Positions 49,505 through 54,198 of a DNA stretch of 64,000 nt are shown piece after piece. Made by a program: the position numbers and the translations under genes. The notes beneath the pieces were generated by a model. The model had not been told where the DNA came from. It was given only the letters and a program-made list of their open reading frames with translations, and made no database searches. Position 1 is the first letter of the stretch; every line of letters begins with the position of its first letter. Source of the stretch: Armatimonadota bacterium. GTDB lineage: Bacteria; Armatimonadota; HRBIN16. Location of the stretch: NCBI GenBank assembly GCA_026003195.1, contig BPGU01000003.1, forward strand, positions 186,001 through 250,000, read 5' to 3'.

Positions 49505-50335
49505 ATGGGCTCCCTTCCTTTTGAACTGGTAGCGGTAGACCTGGACGGCACACTGGCTGACGAGCACAACCGCTGTTCCCCGGTGGACTTGCGAGCGATG
49601 CACGCGGTGGCAGAACGGGGGGCATACGTGGTCATCGCCTCCGGCAGGATGCACGCTGCCACCGAACGCTTCTGGCAGGAAGCGCAACTGAACGCGCCCA
49701 TCCTTTCCTACAACGGCGCGATGATCAAGCACCCACGCGATGGCTTCATCTGGTTCCACCTGACCGTACCCGCTCCTTTTGCGGACGAGATAGTGGATTT
49801 TTGCGAAACGAAAGGCTATCACCTCAACTACTACCTGAACGACCACCTTTACGTGAAGGAAGAGACCCCATGGTCGCAGCTGTACCATCAGCGCACGGGG
49901 TCGGTCATCGAGCCGGTGGGCAGTCTCACGCGCTTCCGGGGGCACTCCCCTACCAAACTCATCCTGATTGATACCCCCGAAACGACCGATCAGCTCAGGG
50001 AGATGTTTCACGACCGCTTCGGGGAGCGGCTGAACATCATCAAGAGCAACGATGAATATCTGGAGTTCATGCACCCGGGCGCGAACAAGGCGCGCACGCT
50101 GCAACGTCTGGCGTATCAGCTGGGCGTGCCGCGCGAGCGCGTGCTGGCTATCGGCGACGGCAACAACGACATCCCCATGATGCGCTGGGCGGGTTACGCG
50201 GTGGCAATGGGCAACGCCAAACCAGCAGTCAAGGAGCTGGCGCACCAGATTGCTCCGCCGATTGAGCAAAACGGGCTGGCGGTTGCACTCGTCGATATAT
50301 TCAGATTAGACCAGAAGGAGGTTTTCGGCTCTTGA
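49505..50335 (+). CDS. Cof-type HAD-IIB hydrolase
   Basis: A 276-residue HAD-superfamily phosphatase with a type IIB cap. Motif I is AVDLDGTLADE with the nucleophile Asp, motif II lies in VVIASGRMHA, NGAMIK follows, and motif IV is AIGDGNNDIPMMRWAGYAVA. Family members dephosphorylate sugar phosphates or other small phosphorylated metabolites in the cytoplasm. It starts 13 bases after AAGAGG. Its stop overlaps the TTG start of the next gene. Confidence 0.92.
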   Translation: MGSLPFELVAVDLDGTLADEHNRCSPVDLRAMHAVAERGAYVVIASGRMHAATERFWQEAQLNAPILSYNGAMIKHPRDGFIWFHLTVPAPFADEIVDFCETKGYHLNYYLNDHLYVKEETPWSQLYHQRTGSVIEPVGSLTRFRGHSPTKLILIDTPETTDQLREMFHDRFGERLNIIKSNDEYLEFMHPGANKARTLQRLAYQLGVPRERVLAIGDGNNDIPMMRWAGYAVAMGNAKPAVKELAHQIAPPIEQNGLAVALVDIFRLDQKEVFGS

Positions 50336-52116
50336 CGCCACACCGTCTGAGATATCTCACTGCACTATTCCTGCTAATGGCTACCCTTTCCGGTTGCGGA
50401 ATGTTCCGTAGCGACACCACTCCCCCAGTCAACGGTTCGGGCAGTCTGGTGCTCACGATTGTCTGGACGGGCAATCGCGGCGACCCGTCGGCGCCGCACT
50501 CGGTGCGGGTGAGCCTCTTCCGAGGCGATAAAACGATCCAGGAGCTGGTATTCAGCCGTGCCGATACCCCTTCCACCGTGTGGACCGCCCAGCTGGAGAG
50601 CGGTACCTACCTGTTGCAGCTCTTCGTCTATCCCAATGAGAACGCCATCGGCACCCCGATCGCAGTCGGTGATATTACCGTACAGGTAGTGCAGGATACC
50701 CCCCAGCGGCTCAATATCGCTACTGGCGGCACGCCCGCTGCCCTCGCCATCCTGCCGACTGTCGCCAACCTCACGCCCGGGCAGACTCTGCCCCTGTCGG
50801 TGCTGGGGGTGGACGCGCAGGGACGCTACTTGCTGCTGCCAGCAGGCTCCACAGTGCGATGGAGCGTGAGCGATAGCAACGTGGTGAACCTCGGCGCAGA
50901 CGGCGTTGCCCGTGCGCTGGCTCCGGGTAGCGCGACGGTGACCGCCAGTGTGGACGCTCTGGGGCTGACAGCAAACGCCTCTGTTGGGGTGCAAACCGTC
51001 CCCCGCGAGTGGACGATACTGGTGTTCATGAACGCCGCCAACAATCTGGAGCCGGACAGCGTGGACGACATGAACGAGATGGAACAGCTCGGCTCCACCA
51101 GCGATGTGAATATCGTGGTGCAGTGGAAGCGCATCGCAGGCTATGACGGCACCAACGGCGACTGGAAGACCACCCGACGCTACTACGTGACCAGAGACAG
51201 CGACCCCGAGACGGTGAGCTCCAATCTGCTGGTGGATATGGGCACAGGCGTCGATATGGGTAGCCCCAACACCCTGCGCGATTTCCTGCAGTGGGGCGTG
51301 CGCAGTTTCCCTGCACGCAAGTATATGGTGGTGCTGTGGAATCACGGGAGCGGCTGGCGGGCTTACCGTGACAGGTTGAATCTCTTCGCGCGTGGCGTCT
51401 CCTATGACGACAACACCGGCAACTACATCCGCATCTGGGAGCTGCCCCTCGCGTTGAGCGCAGGCGTCAAGTGGGACATTATTGCCTTTGATGCCTCACT
51501 GATGCAGATGTTAGAAGTGGCTTACGAGATACGCCATCTGGGCGACTACATCGTGGGTTCTGAAGAAAGCCCGCCGGCACCGGGCTACCCTTACCATCGC
51601 ATTCTGGCTCCGGTTGTCTCCAACCCGGGCATCTCGGCGCGTGACCTCGCCGCACAAATTGTGACGCAGACCATCAACTACTATAACCCCGACAGCACTG
51701 ACAACATCACGCAATCTGCGCTGGATGCCTCGCAGATAGAGAACGTGGCGCAGAAGGTAGACACGCTGGCGCAGGTGTTGCTCACCGTCGCGCCGGGCAA
51801 CGGTGTAGCGGTCGCAACGGCAAGGGATAACGCGCAAGCGTATGCCGAGTATACCTACAAAGACCTGTGGGACTACACCGAGCAACTGCGTGCCCGGCTG
51901 CCCAGCTCGCCAGAACTCACCGATGCACTCAACGGCGTGCAGAACGCCCTGTCGCAGGCGGTGATTGCGGAGGCGCACAGCAACCGTCGGGTGAACCGCT
52001 CGCATGGGTTGTCTATCTACGTGCCGACGCCCAGCAGCTTTGAAACACGCTACGGACTGCTGGCTTTCGCACGCGCCACGCACTGGGACGAGTGGCTACA
52101 GAACCAGCCACAGTAG
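50332..52116 (+). CDS. Clostripain-like (peptidase C11) lipoprotein with Ser in place of the catalytic Cys
   Basis: A 594-residue lipoprotein (lipobox MATLSGCGMF). A beta-rich N-terminal region and a BIG2-like domain (TVRWSVSDSNVVNLGADGVA) precede a peptidase C11 domain from about residue 225 (REWTILVFMNAANNLEPDSV). The catalytic His is present (WNHGSGW, His338). The position of the catalytic Cys in the family's DACLMxMxEVA motif is Ser389 (FDASLMQMLEVAYE), encoded TCA, two changes from any Cys codon. The protein is therefore probably an inactive binder or uses Ser. The TTG start overlaps the HAD stop; AAGGAGG lies 12 bases upstream. Confidence 0.85.
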   Translation: MTPHRLRYLTALFLLMATLSGCGMFRSDTTPPVNGSGSLVLTIVWTGNRGDPSAPHSVRVSLFRGDKTIQELVFSRADTPSTVWTAQLESGTYLLQLFVYPNENAIGTPIAVGDITVQVVQDTPQRLNIATGGTPAALAILPTVANLTPGQTLPLSVLGVDAQGRYLLLPAGSTVRWSVSDSNVVNLGADGVARALAPGSATVTASVDALGLTANASVGVQTVPREWTILVFMNAANNLEPDSVDDMNEMEQLGSTSDVNIVVQWKRIAGYDGTNGDWKTTRRYYVTRDSDPETVSSNLLVDMGTGVDMGSPNTLRDFLQWGVRSFPARKYMVVLWNHGSGWRAYRDRLNLFARGVSYDDNTGNYIRIWELPLALSAGVKWDIIAFDASLMQMLEVAYEIRHLGDYIVGSEESPPAPGYPYHRILAPVVSNPGISARDLAAQIVTQTINYYNPDSTDNITQSALDASQIENVAQKVDTLAQVLLTVAPGNGVAVATARDNAQAYAEYTYKDLWDYTEQLRARLPSSPELTDALNGVQNALSQAVIAEAHSNRRVNRSHGLSIYVPTPSSFETRYGLLAFARATHWDEWLQNQPQ

Positions 52117-52179
52117 CATGACTGTCATCGTGGATGTCATTCTGAAGTGCGCTACGACAAACGAATCGGGAGTTGCGCC

Positions 52180-53403
52180 ATGCACACCGAACTGATCACG
52201 CTAGAAGGACATATCATCGACTCGCTGACGCTGTCGAAGATACTGGACATTCTGGTAGCGGCGGGCGTGGATTACGAGATACGCTCCTTCCGCATCGGCA
52301 AGTCCCATGACGAGCCGAGCCACGCGGAGATACTGGTCATCGCGCCCGACGAGCAGAGCCTGCAGCGCGCCCTGCACGAGGTGCAACAACACGGCGCGGT
52401 CATCTCGCAGGAAGATGCGAATCTGCAACCTGCCCCGCAGGACGGCGTGTTCCCCGAAGGGTTCTACTCCACCACCAATTTAGAGACCTTTGTGCGCATC
52501 GAAGACACGTGGATACCCGTCGAGCGCATCGAGATGGACTGCGGCATCCGCGTCACGCGCAACGAAACGGGCTGGCGGGCGGAGTGCGTACCCCTGCACT
52601 GGGCGCGACAGGGCGACCTGTTCGTAGTGGGGAGTGCGGGCGTGCGCGTGACGCCCATGCCTCGTCGCGAGGCGGAGAGCGTGTTCCACTTCATGGGCAG
52701 CGAAGTCTCTATCGAAAAGCCCAAAACGCGTATCGTGCAGGCGGTGGCGCGTGCCGTGCGCGAGACTAAACTCAAGGGGCAGAAGGTGCTGTTCGTGGGC
52801 GGGCCCGCTATCGTGCATACTGGCGCTGCGCCCTATCTGGAGCGGCTGATTCGCAGCGGCTGGATCGATGTGCTTTTCGCGGGCAACGCGCTGGCCACGC
52901 ACGATATCGAGCGCGTGTTGTACGGCACTTCGCTGGGTGTTGCGCTGGAGACAGGTGTGCCCGAAACGCATGGACATGAGCACCACCTGCGCGCGATCAA
53001 CACCATCCGCGCAGCGGGAGGCATCCGCCAGGCGGTGGAGAAAGGTATCCTGAAAGGCGGCATCATGCATGCCTGTGTGGTAGCGGGGGTGAAAGTAGTA
53101 CTCGCGGGTAGCATCCGCGACGACGGTCCCCTGCCCGACGTCATCACCGATACCGTGCGAGCGCAGGACGCCATGCGCGAAGCCGTTCAGGGGGTTGGAG
53201 TTGCGCTGATGGTGGCGACCACCCTGCACTCCATCGCCACGGGCAACCTGCTCCCCGCCTCGGTGACCACCTTCTGCATCGACGCCAACGCCGATACCGT
53301 CATCAAGCTCACCGACCGCGGCTCGCATCAGGCGTTTGGCATCGTCACCGACTGCGCCTTCTTCCTGAAAGAGCTGGCAGGGGAGCTGTGCGGCAAGGAG
53401 TAA
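52180..53403 (+). CDS. TIGR00300/LOR-SDH family protein, probable ornithine cyclodeaminase
   Basis: A 407-residue protein matching the TIGR00300 family and the C-terminal part of cyanobacterial AgrE/ArgZ. It has ITLEGHIIDSLTLSKILDIL at the N-terminus, GPAIVHTGAAPYLERLI, a dinucleotide-binding-type region and the conserved GNALATHDIERVLYGTSLG. Relatives convert ornithine to proline and ammonia. ATG 52180 follows GGGAG; the upstream ATG-less frame is not used. The next gene, three bases away, encodes the arginine-hydrolysing partner, so the pair could turn arginine into proline. Confidence 0.82.
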   Translation: MHTELITLEGHIIDSLTLSKILDILVAAGVDYEIRSFRIGKSHDEPSHAEILVIAPDEQSLQRALHEVQQHGAVISQEDANLQPAPQDGVFPEGFYSTTNLETFVRIEDTWIPVERIEMDCGIRVTRNETGWRAECVPLHWARQGDLFVVGSAGVRVTPMPRREAESVFHFMGSEVSIEKPKTRIVQAVARAVRETKLKGQKVLFVGGPAIVHTGAAPYLERLIRSGWIDVLFAGNALATHDIERVLYGTSLGVALETGVPETHGHEHHLRAINTIRAAGGIRQAVEKGILKGGIMHACVVAGVKVVLAGSIRDDGPLPDVITDTVRAQDAMREAVQGVGVALMVATTLHSIATGNLLPASVTTFCIDANADTVIKLTDRGSHQAFGIVTDCAFFLKELAGELCGKE

Positions 53404-53406
53404 CTG

Positions 53407-54198
53407 ATGGCGCGCGTGCTGATGTGTCCCCCCGACCATTACGACCTGCGTTACGAGATTAACGCCTGGATGCACCTGGAGAACAAGCCCGACCTGCCCC
53501 TTGCCGTCCAGCAGTGGCAGAGGCTGTACGAGCAGGTACAGCGGCTGGCGCAGGTGGAACTGGTCTCCCCCGCCCCCGAGTGCCCCGATATGGTCTTCAC
53601 CGCCAACGCGGGCTTGATCGTGGGCGAGAAGCGGGTGCTGTTGAGCCGTTTCCGCCATCCCGAACGCCAGCCCGAGGAGCCACACTTTCGCCGCTGGTTT
53701 GAGGAGCACGGCTACACCGTGTACACCATGCCTGAAGACTGCCCCTTTGAAGGTGAGGGCGACATCCTGTGGGCGGGAGAGCGTTACCTGGCGGGCTACC
53801 GCAAACGCACGGAGATGTGTGCCCACCGCATCGCCGCGGAGTACCTGCAGCACGAGGTGCTTTCCCTCGAGCTGGTGGATGATCGGTGGTATCATCTGGA
53901 CACCGCGCTGTTCGTTCTCGATGAGCACACAGTGGTGTACTATCCGGGTGCGTTCGACCCTTACGCGCGCCGTGTGATCGAAGAGCACTACAACACGTTG
54001 TATGTGATACAGGAGGAAGCGCTGCGTTTCGCCTGCAACAGCGTGGTGCTGGGCAACACCGTGTTGATGCCGGAAGGATGCTGGCTATTGAAAAGCCTGC
54101 TGGAGCGCAAAGGCTACGAGGTGATTCCGGTCCCGATGACAGAGTTCATCAAGAGCGGTGGCGCGTGCAAGTGCCTGGTGATGTTTTTAGAGAGGTAG
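53407..54198 (+). CDS. Amidinotransferase/arginine deiminase-like hydrolase (probable arginine dihydrolase)
   Basis: A 263-residue guanidine-modifying enzyme of the DDAH/arginine-deiminase superfamily. Visible motifs are CPDMVFTANAGLIVG, FEGEGDILWAG with the substrate Glu/Asp, the catalytic His in YHLDTALFVLDE, and the nucleophile Cys in SGGACKCLV close to the C-terminus. Size and motifs match the N-terminal arginine dihydrolase half of AgrE/ArgZ, which makes ornithine, CO2 and ammonia from arginine; dimethylarginine hydrolase is the alternative. It follows the TIGR00300 gene after three bases. Confidence 0.82.
   Translation: MARVLMCPPDHYDLRYEINAWMHLENKPDLPLAVQQWQRLYEQVQRLAQVELVSPAPECPDMVFTANAGLIVGEKRVLLSRFRHPERQPEEPHFRRWFEEHGYTVYTMPEDCPFEGEGDILWAGERYLAGYRKRTEMCAHRIAAEYLQHEVLSLELVDDRWYHLDTALFVLDEHTVVYYPGAFDPYARRVIEEHYNTLYVIQEEALRFACNSVVLGNTVLMPEGCWLLKSLLERKGYEVIPVPMTEFIKSGGACKCLVMFLER

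Follow-up and report, generated by a model that had tools for sequence, protein, structure and literature searches.

A C11 (clostripain) family variant of the Armatimonadota with serine at the catalytic cysteine position and a linked change in an active-site loop

Nucleophiles in family C11 and its relatives

Clostripains belong, together with caspases, legumains, gingipains and separase, to clan CD, which has been described as consisting of cysteine enzymes, activated along a path that suits a thiol. The MEROPS signature of the clostripain family, C11, consists of a His-(Gly/Ala) doublet and an Asp-(Ala/Ser)-Cys triplet (PMC4850289). In caspases more than 5 Å separates Cys and His, and the thiol is thought to pass its proton to the substrate, which probably applies throughout clan CD (PMC10088814). 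A path that uses the substrate as base would, we infer, be much harder for a serine, which should need a better base; serine triads nearly always have the N-epsilon configuration (PMC9825947).

Serine is found at the position of the catalytic Cys in family C14 of the same clan, in pseudo-orthocaspases and pseudo-metacaspases (the YS type, TbMC4, and the HS type TbMC1). The protein described here shares with them the clan CD fold and the replacement of Cys by Ser, and TbMC1 also keeps the His (PMC6426788). These proteins belong to another family, however, their commonest bacterial type has lost the His, and the available part of that account describes no coupled loop change. Exchanges of Cys and Ser are also described for clan PA, for SERA5 and the silicateins near family C1, and for the mixed clan PC, in each of which one fold works with either nucleophile (PMC4576821, PMC9825947). 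Their folds and active-site geometries are different from those of our protein, and the parts of these accounts available to us contain no clan CD case.

With the C11 enzymes (clostripain, PmC11, globupain; PF03415) our protein shares the profile, the fold, the His-Gly doublet, the S1 Asp and an Arg at each of the clostripain maturation places. It differs from them in having Ser for the catalytic Cys, and Ser-Pro at positions 413–414 where the Cys forms vary. No paper on a serine-type C11 protein was found among literature titles and the starts of abstracts (subscription papers, preprints and MEROPS lay outside this search). We know of no activity shown for any serine-type C11 protein. Judged from sequences, the finding is larger than the single odd protein of the preliminary description: it is a C11 variant spread through a phylum, without the Cys that defines the family and with a second, linked change.

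The gene at 50332–52116 and its neighbours

The window is the whole 64,000-nucleotide stretch that was analysed, from an Armatimonadota bacterium (contig BPGU01000003.1). The features of interest are as follows, with the single residues and the loop placed by alignment.

49505..50335, + strand, upstream gene for a Cof-type HAD-IIB phosphatase, overlapping the C11 gene by four bases (TTGA)
50317..50321, + strand, likely ribosome-binding site GGAGG (from the sequence), within the last part of the HAD gene
50332..52116, + strand, gene for a C11-like lipoprotein with an active-site Ser, a single open frame of 594 codons with a TTG start
50332..50397, + strand, putative signal peptide (from the sequence) with lipobox LSGC and Cys22
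50749..50958, + strand, Big_2 Ig-like domain, residues 140–209, a marginal Pfam match (23.2 bits, cut-off 22.8)
51022..52098, + strand, Peptidase_C11 domain, residues 231–589 (Pfam, 186.8 bits, cut-off 25.8, E 1.1e-54)
51343..51345, + strand, His338 (CAC), the dyad His, equivalent to clostripain His176 and PmC11 His133
51358..51360, + strand, Arg343, at the position of clostripain Arg181 (first maturation cut)
51391..51393, + strand, Arg354, at the position of clostripain Arg190 (second maturation cut)
51490..51492, + strand, Asp387, the S1 Asp, equivalent to clostripain Asp229 and PmC11 Asp177
51496..51498, + strand, Ser389 (TCA), at the position of the catalytic Cys (clostripain Cys231, PmC11 Cys179)
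51568..51576, + strand, active-site loop Ser413-Pro414-Pro415, of which 413 and 414 track Ser389

The preliminary description had seen here a clostripain-family lipoprotein with an intact His motif and Ser for the catalytic Cys, and both the Pfam match and the alignments to solved C11 chains bear this out: in 6n9j, 6mzo, 9cip, 5dyn, 3uws and 4yec the His of WNHG aligns to His338, which is present in the window protein, and the Cys of FDAC aligns to Ser389. The codon TCA is indeed two changes away from either Cys codon. Sequencing error does not account for the Ser: it recurs in a second serine-type C11 lipoprotein of the same genome (the paralogue L002 on contig 2, with a domain 85% alike) as well as in all 10 readable rows of the genus. 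A true nucleophile Cys nearby, which would have undone that description, does not exist here, as Cys22 of the lipobox is the protein's sole Cys; this lipobox suggests a lipoprotein. By its sequence, then, the protein is a C11 homologue and not strictly a cysteine peptidase, having the His-Gly doublet, and Ser389 where the signature has Cys. It falls far below the cut-off of the NCBIfam clostripain equivalog TIGR02806 (67.2 bits against 550, over residues 228–437). Nor is it a YS-type pseudo-orthocaspase of family C14, since it belongs to C11 and keeps His338.

A first structure model was poor (pLDDT 42.1), and a second, limited to the core (residues 224–483), was fair (pLDDT 67.3, pTM 0.76). 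The core model has the clostripain fold: it matches the solved C11 enzymes 6n9j, 6mzo, 6nag and 9cip with Z scores of 18.7–19.7, a SAVED-CHAT protease with 12.1, and legumains and caspases with about 8–9. Three strands (model residues 105–114, 158–163 and 181–189) end before His338, Ser389 and Ser413, respectively, which would thus lie at one edge of the sheet; model residues 115–118 and 189–195, which include His338 and Ser413, have pLDDT <50, so we quote no distances.

Translational coupling to the HAD phosphatase had also been proposed. The 4-base overlap agrees with it, and wherever contigs reach far enough the genus keeps the order HAD, C11, ornithine cyclodeaminase (OCD), arginine dihydrolase/DDAH-like gene; HAD and C11 genes also meet or overlap in L011 and L014/L032. 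This order is absent at the paralogue (L002, L041), and L002 has no HAD or OCD gene within about 1.5 kb. Outside the genus, relatives of the window's neighbours were not found beside C11 genes (tblastn, E up to 1e-6, flanks of about 1–2 kb), which sets aside a partnership with HAD or arginine catabolism as a general feature. The coupling thus stands for the genus, and because it is seen there only, the HAD link is unlikely to explain the function in general. At 52147–54198 of the window lie an ornithine cyclodeaminase gene (TIGR00300, over the cut-off) and a separate arginine dihydrolase/DDAH-like gene, for which even the best models score below their cut-offs; NCBIfam has a fused counterpart of these two neighbours, bifunc_ArgZ. 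The closeness of arginine breakdown genes to the gene of a possible Arg-directed protease is no more than a lead.

Repeated exchange of Cys and Ser, with a joint change at 413–414

PF03415 was found in 219 of the 291 genomes of the phylum (Armatimonadota), and rows were read from 157 of these 219. In a first sample of 101 genomes, for which every listed match was fetched, the 91 rows comprise 59 His-Ser, 26 His-Cys and six with neither pair; with a different model, this material gave 59 His-Ser, 29 His-Cys and five other rows out of 93. The enlarged set has 140 His-Ser, 39 His-Cys and six other rows out of 185, a proportion that leans towards high-scoring rows and, probably, towards Ser forms, since the additions (80 stretches and further new loci) come from the upper, best-scoring part of the matches listed. 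The Ser form occurs in 129 of the 157 genomes (in 121, every row read was a Ser form) and in 20 of the 28 family groups of the phylum. Alignment of homologues, the check that the preliminary description had proposed, therefore finds the Ser conserved, and it is the commonest state among the phylum rows read; with no other Cys available in the window protein, a lone mutation or error is rejected.

Outside the phylum we read 30 rows: 29 are His-Cys, one is Tyr-Cys and none has Ser. 25 of them come from the phylum to which a Phycisphaerales record belongs (26 of its 149 genomes had a match, and 30 loci were fetched from these), and five are plasmid or phage loci. Rows were dropped when the gene was the same as at another locus (L032–L038, L106, L107), when the domain was identical to another in a different genome (L041, identical to L002) or when they were short or incomplete (13 rows); one His-less gene is counted twice in the 215-row set (L029, L095), and this was corrected in the thinned test given below.

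All 59 serine-type proteins that were scanned match Pfam Peptidase_C11 at E up to 0.001. By a simple pattern, a lipobox is present in 119 of 137 serine-type proteins with enough N-terminus and in 23 of the 39 Cys types from the phylum. The N-terminal parts vary, e.g. Big_2 is found in 10 and carboxypeptidase regulatory-like domains in 11 of the 59 proteins; the common lipoboxes and varied N-terminal parts fit surface display.

A mobile or viral origin of the Ser form was considered and rejected, as the relatives read on viral, phage and plasmid records are Cys-type. A scan of viral contigs with the C11 domain of the window gave no relative, and a scan with a mixed alignment gave one, which is Cys-type (L236, IMGVR_UViG_3300004457_001718). 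The phage set holds one record with C11, also Cys-type. A relative is present on 61 plasmid records, and the four that were read all have Cys.

The nucleophile has been exchanged repeatedly. On a tree of the 215 rows, made with the nucleophile and loop columns excluded, there are at least eight changes between Cys and Ser, with seven independent pairs on starred branches; the method gives no direction for these changes. A single origin of Ser is rejected by an AU test of one Ser clade (p-AU 1.6e-60; 74 rows, 59 Ser and 15 Cys), from which 11 far-diverged Cys rows were left out and in which the loop columns were kept, which should pull the Ser rows together. For example, the sister pair L007 (FDAS, with loop SEESPP) and L026 (FDAC, with loop SEEIVP) has support 100 in a quick tree and lies within a starred set of 54 rows, 45 of them His-Ser; the two proteins are alike at 246 of 369 aligned positions.

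The loop changes together with the nucleophile. Ser-Pro-Pro (SPP) is found in 134 of 140 Ser rows, in one of 39 Cys rows of the phylum and in none of 29 Cys rows outside it (57 of 60 Ser against one of 58 Cys rows after thinning). In every one of 200 random pairings it follows the nucleophile in six of the seven independent pairs; 195 pairings contain no pair that goes the opposite way, and the other five contain one (sign test, median p 0.031, range 0.031–0.125); the first tree gave five pairs, too few for the coupling to reach p 0.05, which the larger set did. In a scan of 139 columns, the nucleophile column included, 414 and 413 rank first in tracking the swap (6.0 and 5.7 of the seven pairs), and the next column reaches 3.5. 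Pro415 is frequent in Cys forms too (35 of 39 phylum rows), so the linked part is Ser413-Pro414. In PmC11 the residues aligned to 413, 414 and 415 are Glu203, Thr204 and Met205, and the latter two line the S1 pocket (PMC4850288). The exceptions are one Cys row with SPP (L051) and six Ser rows without it (SEP or FEP). Arg343, Arg354, Arg498 and His549, all commoner in Ser rows, were tried as further linked residues and do not track the swap across pairs.

Catalysis, binding or another reaction

Rows with the dyad His hold Cys or Ser at the nucleophile place in 208 of 208 cases, and His-less rows in two of seven (Fisher p 5.7e-9); with rows thinned to <60% identity and the doubly read gene removed, the counts are 118 of 118 and two of six (p 1.6e-6). 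Conversely, the His is present in 140 of the 141 rows with Ser at the nucleophile place, L094 (Ser without His) being the exception. Ser389 is encoded by TCN in 72 and by AGY in 68 of 140 rows, and its codon class changed at least five times among the 59 Ser rows of a 121-row tree. The C11 domain is under strong purifying selection: by a counting method its dN/dS is 0.04–0.13 in nine comparisons, eight with species of the genus and one with the paralogue, and in each of them the N-terminal part has a higher value (0.15–0.24).

Not every conserved residue is informative. The S1 Asp is kept in all 140 Ser rows and in all seven His-less rows, and the Gly after the dyad-His place is also kept in 7/7 of the latter; since His-less rows keep both, these two residues alone do not show catalysis. 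The five His-less genes of the phylum (dyad states TP, RD, TG, PG and LS) may indicate how lost catalysis looks in C11, to judge from their sequences: four of the five have also lost the nucleophile and none has Ser-Pro-Pro. Three of these genes (L093, L094 and L103 of family group f15, with Thr-Gly, Leu-Ser and Pro-Gly) form a small clade with support 100 in a quick tree, and are possible true pseudoproteases.

The Arg at the maturation places is better kept in the Ser rows. Clostripain is cut after Arg181 and Arg190 (PMC11296011). Of the 140 Ser rows 133 have Arg or Lys at the Arg354 position, as do 30 of 39 phylum Cys rows and nine of 29 outside Cys rows, and three of seven His-less rows have Arg there; at the Arg343 position, 113 of 140 Ser rows have Arg or Lys. 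Retention at Arg354 would be unexpected in a protein that never cuts, unless another protease makes the cut.

The preliminary description had left two choices, a pseudoprotease used for binding or Ser as the nucleophile. The homologues favour the nucleophile, short of proof, because the Ser is conserved, the His goes with it almost without exception and the active-site loop changes along with it. A working serine-nucleophile C11 lineage is accordingly the reading we think likeliest, and a fairly probable one. The window protein would be a surface lipoprotein acting as an Arg/Lys-directed peptide hydrolase, in which Ser389 would attack the peptide bond with His338 as its partner. It might mature, as clostripain does, by cuts after Arg343 and Arg354, and Asp387 would still read a basic P1 residue. 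The Ser413-Pro414 loop could make a serine workable where the His of clan CD stands too far away for deprotonation, perhaps as a proton relay or through a shift of the His or the substrate; we ascribe the missing function to the loop because Ser413 and Pro414 are the residues that track the swap. TEV protease shows that such a path could in principle exist: giving it Ser for Cys lowered activity about 10^4-fold, and other changes restored near-wild-type activity (PMC4576821). The reading nevertheless meets a serious chemical objection in the clan CD geometry described above, and it is weakened by the rows that break its rules, i.e. L051, L094 and the six Ser rows without SPP. In a bolder form of it, which we offer tentatively and consider somewhat less probable than its opposite, clan CD would have here its first lineage of serine peptidases, spread through the phylum. 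Ser413, at the end of the next strand, would help as a proton relay or positioning group between Ser389 and His338, so that a serine would work in a geometry believed to require a thiol, and the two-part module would have been swapped together several times.

The main rival is a peptide-binding pseudoprotease, in which the cleft would be kept as a surface receptor for Arg/Lys-bearing peptides or protein tails and Ser would abolish cutting. We regard it as rather unlikely, though a serious alternative. The chemistry of clan CD suits a thiol, and Cys136Ser in a C11 enzyme, PNT1 of T. brucei, failed to support viability (PMC4850289). Ser is also the commonest replacement of the catalytic Cys in prokaryotic C14 caspase homologues (PMC3501461), whose Ser variants are presumed inactive while keeping the acidic pocket (PMC6426788); here, likewise, the S1 Asp is kept whether or not the His is. 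But the commonest pseudo-orthocaspase is Tyr-Ser, with the His lost (PMC6426788), whereas nearly all our Ser rows have it and the dead-looking rows are those that lose it. A binder has no evident need of the maturation Arg. Cys forms with the His that are nested among Ser forms (e.g. L026) would be odd if Ser had long been dead, although the direction of change is unproven.

An improbable third reading is that the Ser site does something other than cut peptides in trans: esterase or acyl-transfer chemistry, a ligase-like reaction, or a single maturing self-cleavage. Clan CD includes ligases, and the fold matches take in peptide ligases of the legumain type; in silicateins the exchange of Cys for Ser accompanied a change of reaction (PMC9825947); and since 414–415 match residues lining the S1 pocket of PmC11, the specificity may have changed. 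Against this, the S1 Asp and the cleft residues are peptidase-like, and the sequences give no hint at any particular other substrate. That the Ser is an error, the mark of a decayed gene or a stand-in for a shifted Cys has next to no chance: 25 of 140 Ser rows do have a Cys immediately before the Ser, but the window protein is not among them, 22 of the 140 have no Cys at all in the matched C11 domain, and neither the number of genomes with the Ser form nor the purifying selection suits an error or decay.

The large natural set of Ser forms with His and S1 Asp, together with the sister pairs that differ in the nucleophile and one loop, offers a direct test of whether this fold can run on serine and of what must change for it to do so. 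If the proteins are dead instead, a surface protease would have become a conserved receptor in much of the phylum, an outcome almost equally odd. The label 'clostripain-related cysteine peptidase' would not fit the Ser forms in either case.

Two loci carry C11 genes of different kinds side by side. On contig 458 of G058 (L029), a dead-looking copy, in which Thr and Pro occupy the dyad places, comes after a serine-type gene. On contig 6 of G299 (L182), a serine-type gene with the SPP loop stands in tandem with a Cys-type gene with an LTP loop, a natural pair for a test.
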